The translations under genes were made by a program, and so were the position numbers. From contig JAKAZY010000004.1 of NCBI GenBank assembly GCA_021826425.1, positions 1 to 37,287 of the forward strand: DNA of 37,287 bases. The letters run 5' to 3'. Of the stretch, positions 779-29,415 are shown one piece after another (the first letter of the stretch is position 1; the number at the start of each line of letters is the position of its first letter). This stretch comes from Pseudomonadota bacterium. GTDB lineage: Bacteria > Pseudomonadota > Alphaproteobacteria > Acetobacterales > Acetobacteraceae. The notes beneath the pieces are model-generated. The model was not told the origin of the DNA. It worked only from the letters and a program-made list of their open reading frames with translations, and did no database searches.

Positions 779-857
779 GCATCACTCCTCAGGTTGAGCG
801 AGGCAAGCTTAGTCGCGGGTGGAGACGCTGGCAAAACCCGCCGGCGAAGGCGGCAGA

Positions 858-1838
858 TTATTGCAGATTGCGGTCCGGCGCCTCGCTGGCCACCGGGCTG
901 GCCATCGGCGCTTCGGCCACTTCGTTACGCCCGTTGCTGTCCGCAGCGATCACCGTGCCGTTATCCGGCTGTTTATAAATGAAGCCATAGGTTGGGTAGA
1001 CAGAGCCCATCATGGCGCCGTCTCCGAGTTCAACCCTCACGTCCGTCCAGTTATTATTCGGCGAGACATCCTGCACCGTCACGTCGTTGGTGATGGAGCC
1101 CGGCACCCAATTGGCTTGCGTTACGAGAATCGTCCGCGGGCCGAGAACCGCCGTGACAACCGCGACATGGCCGAGCGGCATGCGGCCGATGGAACGGAAG
1201 TTCAGCACCGCGCCGGTCATCGGCGTGTTACCGCGCGCATAGCGCCCGGCCGCTTCAGCCCACCAGAGGAAGGCATCGCCAGAAAGCTCGATATGCGAAA
1301 CCTCACGCGCGTAAGGCACGCATTGCAGGCGCGAATGGCGATACTCTGCCGCCACACGCTCGTAATGGGTGTGATACGCGGAGGCATAATGCGTTTCGTG
1401 CCACGAATGCTTAGCCGCGACATAGAGATGGTGAGAATAATGCACGGAGGCATAATGCGTTTCGTGCCGCAGATGCTTCGCCGCCACATACACATGGTGA
1501 GAATAGTGCTCGGACAGATGGTGAGAATAGTGCACGGAGGCATAATGCGTCTCGTGGCGTATCGCGCTGTGATGCGTGGTCCTGGCCAGATGCTCAGCCC
1601 TCATATGCTCTCGGCTGACCAATTTATGCACGGACAGAGTATGGTGCGGGGAGGTTGTATGCCGCGTGGACACGCGGGTGGCAGTGCGGTGCAAGGCCAC
1701 GTGATGAGCGCTGGCATGATGTGTGGAAGCCTGCGCGCACGCCGGAATCAAGACGGAAACCGCCGCGATAGAAACGCCTGCAAACCAGGCGCGCGCAGCA
1801 CGGCTGAACGAGCGAGACGGTGCCCCGTCCAGGACCAT
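858..1838 (-). CDS. Secreted His-rich CHAP-domain protein (putative peptidoglycan hydrolase)
   Basis: A 326-residue protein from the chosen start. Residues ~15-37 form a signal peptide (hydrophobic core, then ACAQA|S). Residues ~39-168 are extremely His/Tyr-rich and include tandem ~22-residue repeats with the core HETHYASVHYSHH, visible in the DNA as ~66-bp direct repeats. Residues ~170-245 resemble a CHAP amidase/endopeptidase domain: Cys173 in LQCVPYAR, His224 in GHVAVV and Asn243 in QANW form a plausible catalytic triad. The family usually cuts peptidoglycan stem peptides or amide bonds. The low-complexity arm may bind metal or the wall; that is inference. An in-frame start at 1973 exists, but it adds 45 residues before the signal peptide and has no clear ribosome-binding site, so 1838 is preferred (GGTGAG upstream). 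No obvious operon partner. Confidence 0.75.
   Translation of the reverse strand: MVLDGAPSRSFSRAARAWFAGVSIAAVSVLIPACAQASTHHASAHHVALHRTATRVSTRHTTSPHHTLSVHKLVSREHMRAEHLARTTHHSAIRHETHYASVHYSHHLSEHYSHHVYVAAKHLRHETHYASVHYSHHLYVAAKHSWHETHYASAYHTHYERVAAEYRHSRLQCVPYAREVSHIELSGDAFLWWAEAAGRYARGNTPMTGAVLNFRSIGRMPLGHVAVVTAVLGPRTILVTQANWVPGSITNDVTVQDVSPNNNWTDVRVELGDGAMMGSVYPTYGFIYKQPDNGTVIAADSNGRNEVAEAPMASPVASEAPDRNLQ
1380..1560 (-). repeat. Tandem ~66-bp coding repeats (His-rich arm)
   Basis: Within the CHAP gene, segments beginning GCATAATGCGT (plus-strand reading) recur near 1384, 1450 and 1540 with only a few substitutions. One copy carries a duplicated sub-unit (ATGGTGAGAATA appears twice, near 1495 and 1518). 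The period is a multiple of three, so copy number can change without shifting the frame. Confidence 0.85.
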
Positions 1839-2262
1839 TTTCTGTCTCACCCGAGCTGACCAAAACACGAAAGAAGCATGTGTGCTGGTTACGGGTGGAT
1901 TGCAGGCAACGCAATGCGAAACTGCGACAAAATTACAACACTGACATGTTTTTGCCGATCTTGGCGCCATCACGAGACGACGTTTAAGATAATTTTCCTA
2001 AAACACAAAACCGTATTCATAACAGTTGCAGCGGGGCTTGCCGCAGGCCGAGTCGTAAAAAAGAGAGAAAAGATCGCTCAGCCAAATTTTTGGCGTGCGC
2101 TGGCCTCAGATCAAGCCGCTTTACAGGGAAATCCCGGGCATTGAATAACCCCTACTCGATTGATTCAGAATAGATTTAGAGAAGGAGGGCGGGCCGCGCA
2201 TGTGGTCCGCTCTGATTCTGTTCGGCTGCAACAGTTAACAAAAAATTGAACCGAAGCTGGGG
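1839..2262. other. Intergenic region without a gene
   Basis: About 420 bp between the CHAP start and the RidA stop. It must hold the CHAP promoter, but no convincing -35/-10 pair could be assigned. Bases ~2155-2187 (ATTGATTCAGAATAGATTTAGAG) look like a decayed piece of the dispersed repeat, compared with the copy near 33175-33210. No strong terminator hairpin is visible for the RidA operon. Confidence 0.4.
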
Positions 2263-7558: not shown

Positions 7559-7569
7559 GCCGCATCTCT

Positions 7570-7597
7570 TTCACATTCTGCGATTCGGCACTATATG
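7570..7597 (+). promoter_or_regulatory. Candidate sigma-70-type promoter of ssrA
   Basis: TTCACA at 7570-7575 and TATATG at 7592-7597, separated by 16 bp, lie at the right distance (a start near 7604) upstream of the tmRNA acceptor piece and divergent from thyX. The match is 5/6 and 4/6 to consensus. Confidence 0.45.
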
Positions 7598-7604
7598 AAC
7601 CTCG

Positions 7605-7929
7605 TCAGCTTGCTGACTATGGCGATAAACGATGCGTGGAATAAGCGTTGTGGACCCGGGGGCAGTACCCGGCGCCTCCACCAGATTCCATTCCAGGCGT
7701 CCTGATGACGAAACGGCGCAGCCGTGTAGTCTGAATCAGGCCGCCCAGAATAGTTTGGGGGCGAAATAGACTCGACACGCGTGGTAAAGGCCCATCTTTT
7801 GCCCGGCATTGTACCGCCGTTATCGGGCTAATTTTTAAATGCGAACGATAACAACGTAGCATTCGCTGTCGCTGCCTAATCAGTAGCTAAGCGCGGTTCG
7901 GGGGGCACCGGGCAACAGAAGCCCCCCAC
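7605..7929 (+). ncRNA. ssrA: tmRNA, circularly permuted two-piece form
   Basis: The acceptor piece comes first: a T-arm with stem CCGGG/CCCGG (7656-7672 region), then CGCCTCCACCA ending at 7683. The coding piece begins GGGGGCG at 7757 and pairs with CGCCTCC over seven base pairs, including a G-U at the third pair, the alanine identity signal. The tag reading frame runs from 7841 to a TAA at 7877-7879 and reads ANDNNVAFAVAA, the usual alphaproteobacterial AND...AVAA form. Bases 7684-7756 are the segment expected to be processed out. The T-loop GGCAGTA lacks TTC, which I recall as usual for this lineage. A GGGGGGC/GCCCCCC hairpin (7900-7927) marks the 3' side of the coding piece. The exact 5' and 3' ends are estimates. 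It rescues stalled ribosomes together with SmpB. Confidence 0.93.
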
Positions 7930-7931
7930 TC

Positions 7932-8527
7932 ATGTTTACCGTAATCTTGACGTGGCGCGGCAATGAATTCGGCGAGGGCAATCTGCTCTCCCGGGCGCTG
8001 GTGGAAGGCGGCATTCCAAGCTTGGTGAAGCTGCTGAACCAGGATTTTGCCGGCTTGTTCGCGCGCGATACCCTGGAGCCCATTCTGGGCGGGGTGTTGA
8101 TGAAAGACGCGCAGTATCAAATCGCCTTTCATTCCAGCCTGGCTGCCCGGCATGAGAACAGCGCTACCCTGCCCACCCCAGCGCCAGAGCAGGACGCCAT
8201 TTATGCCGACGAAGCCTCAAAACACGCCTACCTCACCAGCAAAATGCGCCGCCAGCTTGCCGAGGGCGGACGTATCGGGGTTACCAGAGCCCCACCCCGG
8301 TAAACTGGCCTGAAAGTGCTGCCCTGCACGCCGCCCTTAACCGGTTCGGCCGCAACAAATTACTGGTGGTACAGCCAAACCCTCAGCGCAACGGCAAGGC
8401 CGAGCCGCTCGACCAGGGGCTTTTCCATGGCTATCTGGCTGAGGCGGCACCGCCGGATAAAGGCTGGCTTTTTGACCCCGTGAGCTGGGGCACCCTGTTG
8501 CGGGCCACATTGCGCCTGGCGCGCTAA
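7932..8527 (+). pseudogene. Unknown protein, frameshifted near 8280
   Basis: The first frame gives 123 residues (from ATG 7932 to TAA 8301-8303). The -1 frame from about 8279 continues as GVYQSPTPVNWPESAALHAAL and LLVVQPNPQ to a TAA at 8525-8527. One extra base in the GGGGTT run at 8277-8282 would join them into one ~198-residue protein. The reconstructed pattern (an N-terminal G-N-E-F-G segment, YQIAFH, a SKMRRQLAEGGRIGV block, and ALHAALNRFGRNKLLVV) reminds me of an uncharacterised alphaproteobacterial family often linked to glycan genes, but I cannot name it. The start follows directly on the ssrA hairpin with no ribosome-binding site, so the N-terminus is uncertain. It could be a decayed gene or a sequencing error. 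Confidence 0.5.
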
Positions 8528-8529
8528 AC

Positions 8530-8606
8530 AAAAAAAGGCGGTGCGCAATGCACCGCCAAGTTTAGGGAGGAAACGTCCAAGAAAATAGGAGAGAAACTCA
8601 TCCTAT
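8530..8606 (-). ncRNA. Probable MmgR/alpha-r8-type trans-acting sRNA
   Basis: On the minus strand a TATAAT box (8617-8612) precedes a ~77-nt transcript. It contains a 5' hairpin ATAGGA...TCCTAT (8606-8585), a single-stranded TTTCCTCCCT (complement of 8564-8573), and a terminator with stem GGCGGTGC/GCACCGCC, loop of five, and seven Ts (8557-8530). From memory, the alphaproteobacterial alpha-r8 family (MmgR of Sinorhizobium, ~77 nt, linked to polyhydroxybutyrate granule control) carries an ultraconserved UUUCCUCCCU. The match in motif, length and architecture is strong. That motif is complementary to Shine-Dalgarno sequences, so it would probably repress translation. No -35 box is obvious. Confidence 0.65.
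8537..8557 (-). terminator. Rho-independent terminator (sRNA and any ispF read-through)
   Basis: Perfect 8-bp stem GGCGGTGC (8537-8544) / GCACCGCC (8550-8557), loop GCAAT, followed on the minus strand by seven Ts (8536-8530). Confidence 0.85.
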
Positions 8607-25826: not shown

Positions 25827-26372
25827 ATGGCCCGCGGTTCTACCCTGCGCCGGTCTACCCGCCCGTGGCGCCAGGTTGACGCTGTCTCGCGATGGCTTTT
25901 CCCCTTCGCGACATTGGTCTTCGGCCTGTTCGTCATTGGCATGCCGTTTGGCATTCCCGGCCAGGCGGCGCTGCGGCCGGTCTACGCCATGGCCTGTGTG
26001 TATTTCTGGTCGCTCTACCGGCCGGGCTCGCTGCCTGCACCGCTCGTGGCGTTGTGCGGGCTGTTGCTGGACCTTCTGGGCCTGTCTCCGTTCGGTGTTT
26101 GGGCGGTGCTCTTGCTGCTGCTGCAATGGGTCACGCTGCTGTTGCGGCGCAAGCTCGTGCCGGGGCGCTTTCTTCTGGTCTGGGCGGTATTCACGGCAAT
26201 GGCAGCGGTGAGTGTGACTCTAGCCTGGGCGGCGGCTTGCGCCTTCGATGAAACCTGGCTTCCTACCACACCGCTGGGGTTTGAATGGTTGCTCTCGGCC
26301 GGAATATACCCGGCCTTGGCAGCGCTGCTCATCAAGGCGCATCGCGGCCCGGCGGCGGTGGAACTGGCATGA
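25827..26372 (+). CDS. mreD: Rod shape-determining protein MreD
   Basis: A 181-residue inner-membrane protein with four to five hydrophobic helices. The typical MreD segments are YFWSLYRPGSLPAPLVALCGLLLD (residues ~60-83) and LGLSPFGVWAVLLLLLQW. It is part of the MreBCD elongation complex. It begins three bases after mreC, and its stop overlaps the start of mrdA (ATGA at 26369-26372). The sequence is poorly conserved in general, so the call rests on topology, these motifs and the operon position. Confidence 0.9.
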   Translation: MARGSTLRRSTRPWRQVDAVSRWLFPFATLVFGLFVIGMPFGIPGQAALRPVYAMACVYFWSLYRPGSLPAPLVALCGLLLDLLGLSPFGVWAVLLLLLQWVTLLLRRKLVPGRFLLVWAVFTAMAAVSVTLAWAAACAFDETWLPTTPLGFEWLLSAGIYPALAALLIKAHRGPAAVELA

Positions 26373-28258
26373 AGCGTCAGGCCAAGAACCGCACCTCGTT
26401 CTCGCGCCGGGCCTTTCTGATCGGCGCAGGCCAGGCGGCGGTGTTCGCCGCCATCACGACACGGCTTTACCATCTGCAAATCGCCGAGCATGGCAAATAC
26501 GCGCTGAAGGCGAAGCAGAACTCCATTTCCGAACGGCTGGTCGCCCCCCTGCGTGGCATCATGACAGACCGCTTCGGCGCGGTTCTGGCGGGTAACCAGC
26601 AGCACTGGAACGCCCTGTTTGTGAAGGATATGGCACCAGAGCCAGACGCGGTGCTGGAGAATTTCTACCGCCTCATCCCGCTCTCCGATGCCGAGAAGGC
26701 CCGTATCCAGCAAGATCTGGCAGCCCATCCCGGCTATATTCCAGTGATGCTGAAAGACTGGCTGGATTGGCCCGACATGGCGGCGATCGAGGTAAATACG
26801 CCAAACCTGCCGGGCGTGATCGTACAGGCGGGTTCCAGCCGCACCTATCCGCTGGGGGCCATCGCGGCGCACGCCGTTGGCTATGTCGGCCGACCGAACC
26901 AAAAGGAGACGGAGCAAGATTCAGTGCTGGCCCTGCCGGGCATGCGCGTGGGCCGCACCGGCGCTGAGGATGCGAACGACCTCGCCCTGCGCGGCGCGCC
27001 CGGTTTTGTGCAAACCGAAACAAATGTACGCGGCGAGGTGATGCGCGTGGTGGCGCAGGATAACGGCACGCCGGGGCAAACCGTGGCGCTGGCGCTGGAT
27101 TCCGGGTTGCAGCAGCTCGCCGTGCAAAGCCTGAGCAGCCAAACCGGCGCGGTGGTGATGCTGGATGCCACAACCGGCGAAATTCTCGCCATGGCCAGCA
27201 CCCCCTCCTTCGACCCAACATTGTTCGACAGAGGCGTGCCCAACGATATCTGGAACGGCTGGATCAACGACCCCCGACATCCGCTGCTCAACAAAGCCGC
27301 CGCCGGGCTGTTCGCCCCCGGTTCCACCTTCAAGCCCAGCGTCGCGCTGGCAGCGCTAAAATGCGGGGCCCTCACGCCCGATTCCACCCATAACTGCCCC
27401 GGCTTCCTCAAACTCGGGAGGCATATTTTCTGGTGCGACAATCACGACGCCCACGGCACTATCAATGTTGTGGATGCGCTGAAGGTCAGCTGCGACGTAT
27501 TTTTCTACAAAACCGCTCTGGATACCGGCATCGACCGCATCGCCGCCATGGCCTCGATCATGGGCCAGGGTGTCGATCTCGGCTCAGATGTGCCGAATGC
27601 TTCCGTCGGGTTAGTGCCCACACATGCCTGGGCCAAGCAGCACGGCATCGACTGGGTAGAAGGCAATACCGTGGTGCAGGGCATCGGCCAGGGCTACACC
27701 CAGCTCACGCCGCTTGCCCAGGCCACCATGGTTGCCAGGCTTGCCTCTGGCTTGGCGGTCACCCCGCATCTCGCCCGCCGCGTGGGCGGGGTGCTGCAAC
27801 CCGAATCCCTGCCCGGCGGGGCCCCGGCTTTGGATGTGGACGACCAGCATCTCGCGGTTGTCCGCCAGGGGCTGTTTGCGGTGGTCAACGACCCCGCCGG
27901 CACCGGCTATGGCGCGCGGCTGACCATCCCTGGCGTACAGATGGCGGGCAAAACCGGCACCGCCCAGGTGCACGACAACACCGCGGCTGAAAAAGCCAGA
28001 AACTTTAACGACATGACCATGGCCTGGGCGCAGCGCCCGAATGCCTGGTTTGTGGCCTATGCGCCCGCCGACGCGCCGCGCTACGCCGTGGCCGTTATGG
28101 TGGAGCACGGCAATTTCGGCGCGCAAACCGCAGCGCCCATCGCGCACGACATGATGACCTATGCCTTGCTGAACGACCCCGCGGGGCGGGACCAACCCTT
28201 GGCCAACCCACCCCCCATGCCACCGTTAACCGTGCCGCAGCAGGGCGCCAGCGCATGA
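26369..28258 (+). CDS. mrdA: Penicillin-binding protein 2 (peptidoglycan transpeptidase)
   Basis: A 629-residue class B PBP that cross-links lateral-wall peptidoglycan, working with RodA. An N-terminal anchor (FLIGAGQAAVFAAITTRLY) is followed by the pedestal domain with RLVAPLRGIMTDRFG. The transpeptidase domain has the nucleophile Ser319 in STFK, SCD at 374-376 and KTG at 528-530, all three active-site motifs. A Pro-rich tail ends the protein. The start overlaps mreD and the stop overlaps rodA (28255-28258), implying tight translational coupling. Confidence 0.95.
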   Translation: MKRQAKNRTSFSRRAFLIGAGQAAVFAAITTRLYHLQIAEHGKYALKAKQNSISERLVAPLRGIMTDRFGAVLAGNQQHWNALFVKDMAPEPDAVLENFYRLIPLSDAEKARIQQDLAAHPGYIPVMLKDWLDWPDMAAIEVNTPNLPGVIVQAGSSRTYPLGAIAAHAVGYVGRPNQKETEQDSVLALPGMRVGRTGAEDANDLALRGAPGFVQTETNVRGEVMRVVAQDNGTPGQTVALALDSGLQQLAVQSLSSQTGAVVMLDATTGEILAMASTPSFDPTLFDRGVPNDIWNGWINDPRHPLLNKAAAGLFAPGSTFKPSVALAALKCGALTPDSTHNCPGFLKLGRHIFWCDNHDAHGTINVVDALKVSCDVFFYKTALDTGIDRIAAMASIMGQGVDLGSDVPNASVGLVPTHAWAKQHGIDWVEGNTVVQGIGQGYTQLTPLAQATMVARLASGLAVTPHLARRVGGVLQPESLPGGAPALDVDDQHLAVVRQGLFAVVNDPAGTGYGARLTIPGVQMAGKTGTAQVHDNTAAEKARNFNDMTMAWAQRPNAWFVAYAPADAPRYAVAVMVEHGNFGAQTAAPIAHDMMTYALLNDPAGRDQPLANPPPMPPLTVPQQGASA

Positions 28259-29415
28259 TCGAATATGGCAGCCTAAGTTTGCGCCGCCCCTTCCGCGAAC
28301 GCTCCTTCGGCCTGGCGCGCAAGCTGATGCGGGTGAACTGGCTGTTCGTGCTTTGCGTCTGCCTGCTGGCGGGGGTGGGGTATGCGGCCCTTTATTCCGC
28401 CGCCGGCGGCTCGCCGCAACCTTACGCGCAAAGCCAACTCATCCGGTTTTGCGGCGCGCTGGTGCTTATGCTCGGCATCGCCATGGTGGATATCCGCTTC
28501 ATCGCCAAACTCTCCTGGCCCGCCTGGGTTTTTGGTATCCTCCTGCTCATCGCGGTGATGAAATTTGGCCATGTGGGCCTGGGCGCGAAGCGCTGGATGA
28601 CCGTGGGCGGCATGGAAATTCAGCCCTCAGAGCTGATGAAATTGTTTCTGGCCATGGCGCTGGCCCGCTATTTTCAGCGCGCCACGCCTGAGCAAACCGG
28701 CAACCTGCTTTTCGTGCTCCCCGCCATCCTCGCCGCCCTGGTGCCGATGGGGCTTATCTTGAAAGAACCCAATCTCGGCACCGCCATCATCACCGGTACC
28801 ATCGGCGCCACGGTGATGCTGGGGGCGGGCGTGCGCTGGTGGTGGTTCGCGCTCGTAGTGGTGTTTATCGCCATCTGCGCGCCGGTTATTTACCACCATC
28901 TGCACGCCTACCAGAAAGCGCGGATCGACATCTTCTTGAACCCCGGCGCCGACCCGCTGGGAGCAGGCTACAACATTATCCAGAGCAAAATCGCGCTCGG
29001 CTCCGGCGGATTCTTCGGCCAGGGTTTTCTGCACGGCACCCAGAATCAGCTCAACTTCCTACCTGAGAAACAGACGGATTTCGTCTTTACCATCATCGCG
29101 GAGGAGTTCGGCTTCTTTGGCTCCGTAGCGGTGCTGGGGCTGCTGATGTGCATCGTGACGATGGGTTATTACACGGCGCTATCCTGCAGCCATGTCTATG
29201 GACGGCTGTTGGCTTTGGGCATCGCCACGAATTTTTTTCTCTACTGCTTCGTCAACCTCTCGATGGTAATGGGCCTTATTCCCGTAGGCGGCGTGCCGCT
29301 TCCGCTCATCTCCTATGGCGGCTCGGCGCTGACCGCGGTGATGCTGGGTTTCGGGGTGCTGATGTCGATCCATGTACACCGGGATGTGGACTTTCCCGAG
29401 CACGAGGAATTCTGA
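28255..29415 (+). CDS. rodA: SEDS peptidoglycan glycosyltransferase RodA
   Basis: A 386-residue multi-pass SEDS protein that polymerises lipid II for cell elongation. Family signatures are GAKRWMTVGGMEIQPSELMK, DPLGAGYNIIQSKIALGSGG with the conserved Asp233, FLHGTQNQLNFLPEKQTDF and the C-terminal GGVPLPLISYGGSAL. The loop usually reading QPDLGT is EPNLGT here, with Asn173 at the Asp position reported as important in E. coli RodA. It is overlapped at its start by mrdA and followed by murI after six bases, consistent with one wall-synthesis transcript. Confidence 0.95.
   Translation: MIEYGSLSLRRPFRERSFGLARKLMRVNWLFVLCVCLLAGVGYAALYSAAGGSPQPYAQSQLIRFCGALVLMLGIAMVDIRFIAKLSWPAWVFGILLLIAVMKFGHVGLGAKRWMTVGGMEIQPSELMKLFLAMALARYFQRATPEQTGNLLFVLPAILAALVPMGLILKEPNLGTAIITGTIGATVMLGAGVRWWWFALVVVFIAICAPVIYHHLHAYQKARIDIFLNPGADPLGAGYNIIQSKIALGSGGFFGQGFLHGTQNQLNFLPEKQTDFVFTIIAEEFGFFGSVAVLGLLMCIVTMGYYTALSCSHVYGRLLALGIATNFFLYCFVNLSMVMGLIPVGGVPLPLISYGGSALTAVMLGFGVLMSIHVHRDVDFPEHEEF

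Follow-up and report, generated by a model that had tools for sequence, protein, structure and literature searches.

The closest described genes include a pair from Gluconobacter oxydans, GOX_RS06930 and GOX_RS07380, which are CHAP genes named as candidate endopeptidases; 1-3 cross-links persisted in their single transposon mutants, for which the authors raise possible redundancy (PMC10727944). This pair comes from the same bacterial family as the locus described below, encodes the same domain, and matches the two genes per genome found in most Acetobacteraceae searched in this study. The comparison with these two proteins is by description only, and the passage describing them mentions no arm (PMC10727944). 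The window analyzed here (the whole stretch of 37,287 nucleotides) carries a CHAP gene on the minus strand, read from its sequence and open reading frames as running from a start ATG at 1838 to a last codon ending at 861. In the 326-aa product, a signal peptide leads into an arm of 128 residues, which is followed by a CHAP domain and then by a C-terminal tail. The features of the locus, in window coordinates, are:

1728-1838, minus strand: type I signal peptide, residues 1-37, ending in ...PACAQA with an AxA cleavage motif
1344-1727, minus strand: His/Tyr-rich arm, residues 38-165, 128 aa, predicted to be disordered (pLDDT mostly 27-43)
1379-1514, minus strand: tandem repeat of a 66-bp unit (HETHYASVHYSHHLYVAAKHLR type), in frame, 2.1 copies
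1490-1538, minus strand: 24-bp (8-codon) nested repeat, 2 copies
1540-1556, minus strand: first HETHYA copy, 30 codons before the next copy
1110-1331, minus strand: CHAP domain (PF05257), from the profile match and homologue alignment
1322-1320, 1169-1167 and 1112-1110, minus strand: catalytic codons Cys173, His224 and Asn243, respectively
861-923, minus strand: C-terminal tail EVAEAP...APDRNLQ, conserved in the alignment
1893-1940, minus strand: conserved, non-coding element TGTTGTAATTTTGTCGCAGTTTCGCATTGCGTTGCCTGCAATCCACCC upstream of the gene, with the core usually ~94 bp ahead of the start ATG

An earlier note on this DNA had placed a histidine-rich tandem-repeat arm on a secreted CHAP protein at 1290-1720. 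The observation itself is confirmed and its interpretation supported in part, and the interval covers most of the arm but misses its first residues and includes the start of the CHAP domain (the arm runs from 1727 to 1344). The note's reading of the protein as secreted, with a CHAP fold and an intact Cys/His/Asn triad, is likewise supported. The last residue of the signal peptide (A37) is invariant in the alignment of 19 homologues and the AlphaFold2 model has a helix at residues 11-30, while the CHAP profile match on which the reading depended was found at 48.1 bits against a cut-off of 26 bits (50.4 bits in another run). Cys173, His224 and Asn243 are invariant in all 19 homologues, and the residue two before the Asn is Gln in the window protein and Glu in three others (L017-L019). 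In the AlphaFold2 model the beta core is confident, most of its blocks having pLDDT 77-91, and confidence is low for the arm, the tail and the stretch around the catalytic Cys helix; a domain-only model was similar. The first Foldseek matches were CHAP proteins (probability 1.00), and the matches included Gsp amidase, the trypanothione synthetase amidase domain, PlyPy, an S. aureus amidase and LysK; with low TM-scores (0.3-0.5 at best), these support the fold class only. Judged by sequence and predicted fold, the window protein belongs to an established enzyme type, the CHAP amidases/endopeptidases, and a putative peptidoglycan hydrolase that would act in the periplasm, its host being Gram-negative. 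It also has the type I signal peptide, basic arm and tail (EVAEAP...AP(N/D)RxL(Q/R)) of a secreted, armed class of CHAP proteins in the Acetobacteraceae. An antisense open reading frame opposite the CHAP gene (819-1859, plus strand, 346 aa) had no support of any kind and was rejected as a gene; it is taken as a mirror of the CHAP frame, a by-product of GC-rich codon use. Elsewhere in the window are a permuted (alphaproteobacterial) tmRNA gene at 7565-7930 (plus strand), a match to RF00519 (suhB/mmgR sRNA, 45.6 bits) at 8523-8598 (minus strand), and, ~25 kb from the CHAP gene at 26285-29412 (plus strand), the gene for Penicillin-binding protein 2 (mrdA) followed by an FtsW/RodA-family gene.

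The arm of the window protein contains 32 His among its 128 residues, together with 17 Ala, 15 Ser, 13 Thr, 10 Tyr, 9 Arg, 3 Lys and 8 Glu, and has no Asp, Asn or Gln. Its His content of 25% compares with 2.5% overall in 225 open reading frames (71,293 aa) from 21 stretches of the genome totaling ~237 kb, among which the arm ranks first for His in windows of 60 residues as well as 130 (33 His in the best 130-aa window versus 18 for the runner-up). Tandem Repeats Finder recovered both the 66-bp unit and the nested 24-bp unit, and HETHYAS occurs three times in frame, with codons starting at 1556, 1466 and 1400 (spacings of 30 and 22 codons). The highest-scoring in-phase self-match, at 22 codons, reached 43, whereas none of 300 codon shuffles scored above 17, indicating that the 66-bp repeats far exceed what codon shuffling yields. 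The 17-bp repeat core has three copies genome-wide, all within the arm.

The window genome groups with Acidocella, in agreement with the acidophile host proposed in the earlier note. Acidocella facilis ATCC 35904 falls in the same genus, the protein at L162 (same genus) being that of the named locus L003. Homologues were present in 146 of the 150 genomes searched in the family (Acetobacteraceae), mostly as two per genome, and where the second CHAP gene was sampled (L100-L102, L104-L109) it encodes a short lipoprotein lacking the arm. One genome (G014) carries a tandem pair of armed CHAP genes on a single contig (L118 and L119; arm His 17.5% and 12.1%). At class level, matches came from 48 of 289 genomes, four of these 48 belonging to the window's own family, and many of the matches fetched from outside the family are lipoproteins. 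Where Acidocella and Acidiphilium loci have enough flanking sequence, a RidA-family gene almost always adjoins the CHAP gene, and about half the Acidocella loci have a nitroreductase gene on the other flank. The C-terminal tail, though not part of the CHAP domain and predicted to be disordered, is kept in much of the family; arm His averages 17% in proteins with the tail motif versus 9% in those without it.

The CHAP domains of the 30 Acidocella species are readily aligned (70-100% pairwise identity), whereas most arms are unalignable (median z of 0.7-1.0 versus shuffled arms at 75-85% CHAP identity) and range from 18 to 128 residues after trimming. Arm composition is conserved where arm sequence is not: His makes up 23.1 ± 3.1% (sd) of the arm, and the observed sd lies below the ~4.6 expected from binomial sampling of ~85 residues alone, so that no tighter hold on composition could be measured, with kinship also narrowing the spread. 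Asp, Asn and Gln, whose codons are one mutation from those of His, account for ~1-2% each. About 13 of the 30 arms contain significant internal repeats, with periods of 22, 12, 24, 6, 13 and 5, and the repeat units differ among species (THETHYVHLARY in L002, HYKHYAASHYRHYAA in L163, HEAHYT in L166, HHVAY in L179). Since arms without significant repeats are similarly His-rich, His is not just the by-product of one repeat, and the arm sequences speak for selection that would act on composition rather than for amplification of one lucky unit. The Acidocella arm with the lowest His (L169) has the highest Lys/Arg (22%).

The expectation in the earlier note that homologues would keep the His content holds for Acidocella, with 13-28% in all 30 species, but not for the family as a whole, where arm His is 10% or more in 59 of 94 armed proteins and below 5% in 23. 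Positive charge is the more general property, with Lys+Arg exceeding Asp+Glu in 93 of the 94 arms; the species are related, and these counts are thus not independent. On a CHAP tree whose backbone is poorly resolved, His-rich arms are found in the Acidocella/Acidiphilium branch (including most Acidiphilium) and again in another branch, whose 29 proteins mostly have short arms, and one block of ten proteins is His-poor. The arm of one family member (L046) is a 247-residue Pro-rich repeat (xFxPPAYxPPAG) that is almost His-free. In the acidophile group (44 arms), His trades off against Lys/Arg (rho -0.70), and the sum of the two has an sd of 0.035 versus 0.077 if they were independent. This trade-off is mostly a contrast between Acidocella and Acidiphilium and is weak inside Acidocella alone (rho -0.28, p 0.13); composition closure by itself also yields a small negative correlation. 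Arm His correlates with genome size (rho -0.53) and GC content (rho -0.44), but both are confounded with phylogeny and are not counted here in favor of acid adaptation.

There are several potential explanations for these patterns. The one we favor, to which we would give an even chance, is that the protein is a periplasmic CHAP peptidoglycan hydrolase with a disordered, polycationic N-terminal tether in which charge, not exact sequence, is selected. Through electrostatic attraction to peptidoglycan carboxylates, LPS, membrane or another anionic surface of this kind, the arm would keep the enzyme in place, with composition and charge under selection and with exact sequence and length turning over freely through tandem-repeat slippage. 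In a simple pKa model (His pKa 6.3), the arm is positively charged throughout, at ~+46 at pH 3, ~+41 at pH 4.5, ~+28 at pH 6 and ~+8 at pH 7.5. In Acidocella and several relatives, His would supply most of this charge and would be fully charged at acid pH, so that in an acid periplasm it would equal Lys or Arg as a positive charge. The persistence of positive charge throughout the family, together with the trade-off between His and Lys/Arg, favors electrostatic attachment of this kind over metal binding.

A possible but not a probable alternative is that the arm acts as a pH switch, binding at acid pH and releasing or relaxing near neutral, such that attachment or activity follows external pH. 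The wall attachment switched by pH that the earlier note suggested is plausible from the computed charge, which drops from ~+41 at pH 4.5 to +8 at pH 7.5, and the His-rich arms, including those of Acidocella and most Acidiphilium, cluster on the tree (20 changes versus 44.6 when shuffled). The gene also has its own conserved upstream element, which the Acidocella alignment resolves into a block TGTTGTAaTTTTGtCGCA...TTGCg...GCAaTCCACCC with TTGTCTTAA further up. A 30-bp pattern from it (two mismatches at most) occurs in 33 of 38 Acidocella genomes, nearly always in single copy and at the CHAP gene wherever that gene was located, compared to two matches in all for the reversed pattern; it is partly visible in L009-L011 and L014, and Rfam gave no match at the element. 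The TGT-N8-TGT in the element is spaced like OmpR-family sites, among them that of CenR (TGA-N8-TGA; PMC9275681), but because the letters differ, CenR was not assigned as the regulator. However, three acidophile homologues (L014-L016) carry Arg in place of His (2.6% His and 23% Lys/Arg in the L014 arm), and these would not switch. An electrostatic tether would work without a switch, which would follow if the organism meets near-neutral pH. As a single proposal, a wall hydrolase targeted by composition alone, through a sequence-free, length-variable His-rich tether with near-constant charge under selection despite repeat turnover, attachment strength set by periplasmic pH and a gene-specific conserved control element, is offered only tentatively.

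It is unlikely that the arm is a passive, low-complexity spacer drifting by slippage, with a functionless composition in which His is kept by inheritance only. Such a spacer could account for the range of arm lengths (~20 to 130 residues), for tandem repeats that differ among species and for the His-free arms of some family members. However, arms that are mostly unalignable over the genus vary in His by only 3.1 points, non-repetitive arms are similarly His-rich, and Asp, Asn and Gln, each one mutation away from His, stay rare.

Metal binding, also raised in the earlier note, appears more doubtful still: an arm chelating Zn, Cu or Ni in the periplasm, thereby buffering metals or regulating the enzyme, would fit the abundance of His and the ATCUN-type His at position 3 of the predicted mature N-terminus (STHH; position-3 His in 13 of 28 Acidocella proteins), but position-3 His is near background elsewhere in the family (12 of 88), the H-x-H spacing is strongly depleted (41 versus 119 expected, with a z inflated by relatedness and repeats), Arg takes the place of His in relatives, the arm has little Cys, Asp or Gln, and most His would be protonated at an acid periplasmic pH.

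The favored reading, an electrostatic tether, concerns a little-studied question, namely how wall-cutting enzymes are positioned in the acid periplasm of acidophiles. The 30 species versions, which differ in arm length and repeat units, form a ready panel for asking whether charge alone could target such an enzyme and whether a pH response would depend on His. What appears new is the arm's mode of evolution, and the composition-conserved arm is a variant for which no description was found. Searches of the open-access literature, which are weak evidence of absence, found no paper on a His-rich arm joined to CHAP and a linker; for His-rich tandem repeats in acidophile periplasmic proteins they likewise found none, and wider searches gave only loosely related work.

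Compared to known systems, the arm shares a high His content in an unstructured stretch with the Hpn-like metal-binding proteins of Helicobacter (PMC8704837), but it has no Gln-rich part, avoids H-x-H and has its His swapped for Arg in relatives. The conserved chelating spacing of a metal-binding protein is absent, with H-x-H depleted and His lost in part of the family. With CHAP hydrolases and endolysins (PlyPy, LysK, LysGH15, the S. aureus amidase 5t1q and PcsB, the last among the weak sequence matches of the window protein), the predicted core shares its fold and the Cys-His-Asn residues. The difference lies in the targeting part, which in those proteins is a folded wall-binding or coiled-coil domain and here is proposed to be a disordered cationic arm.
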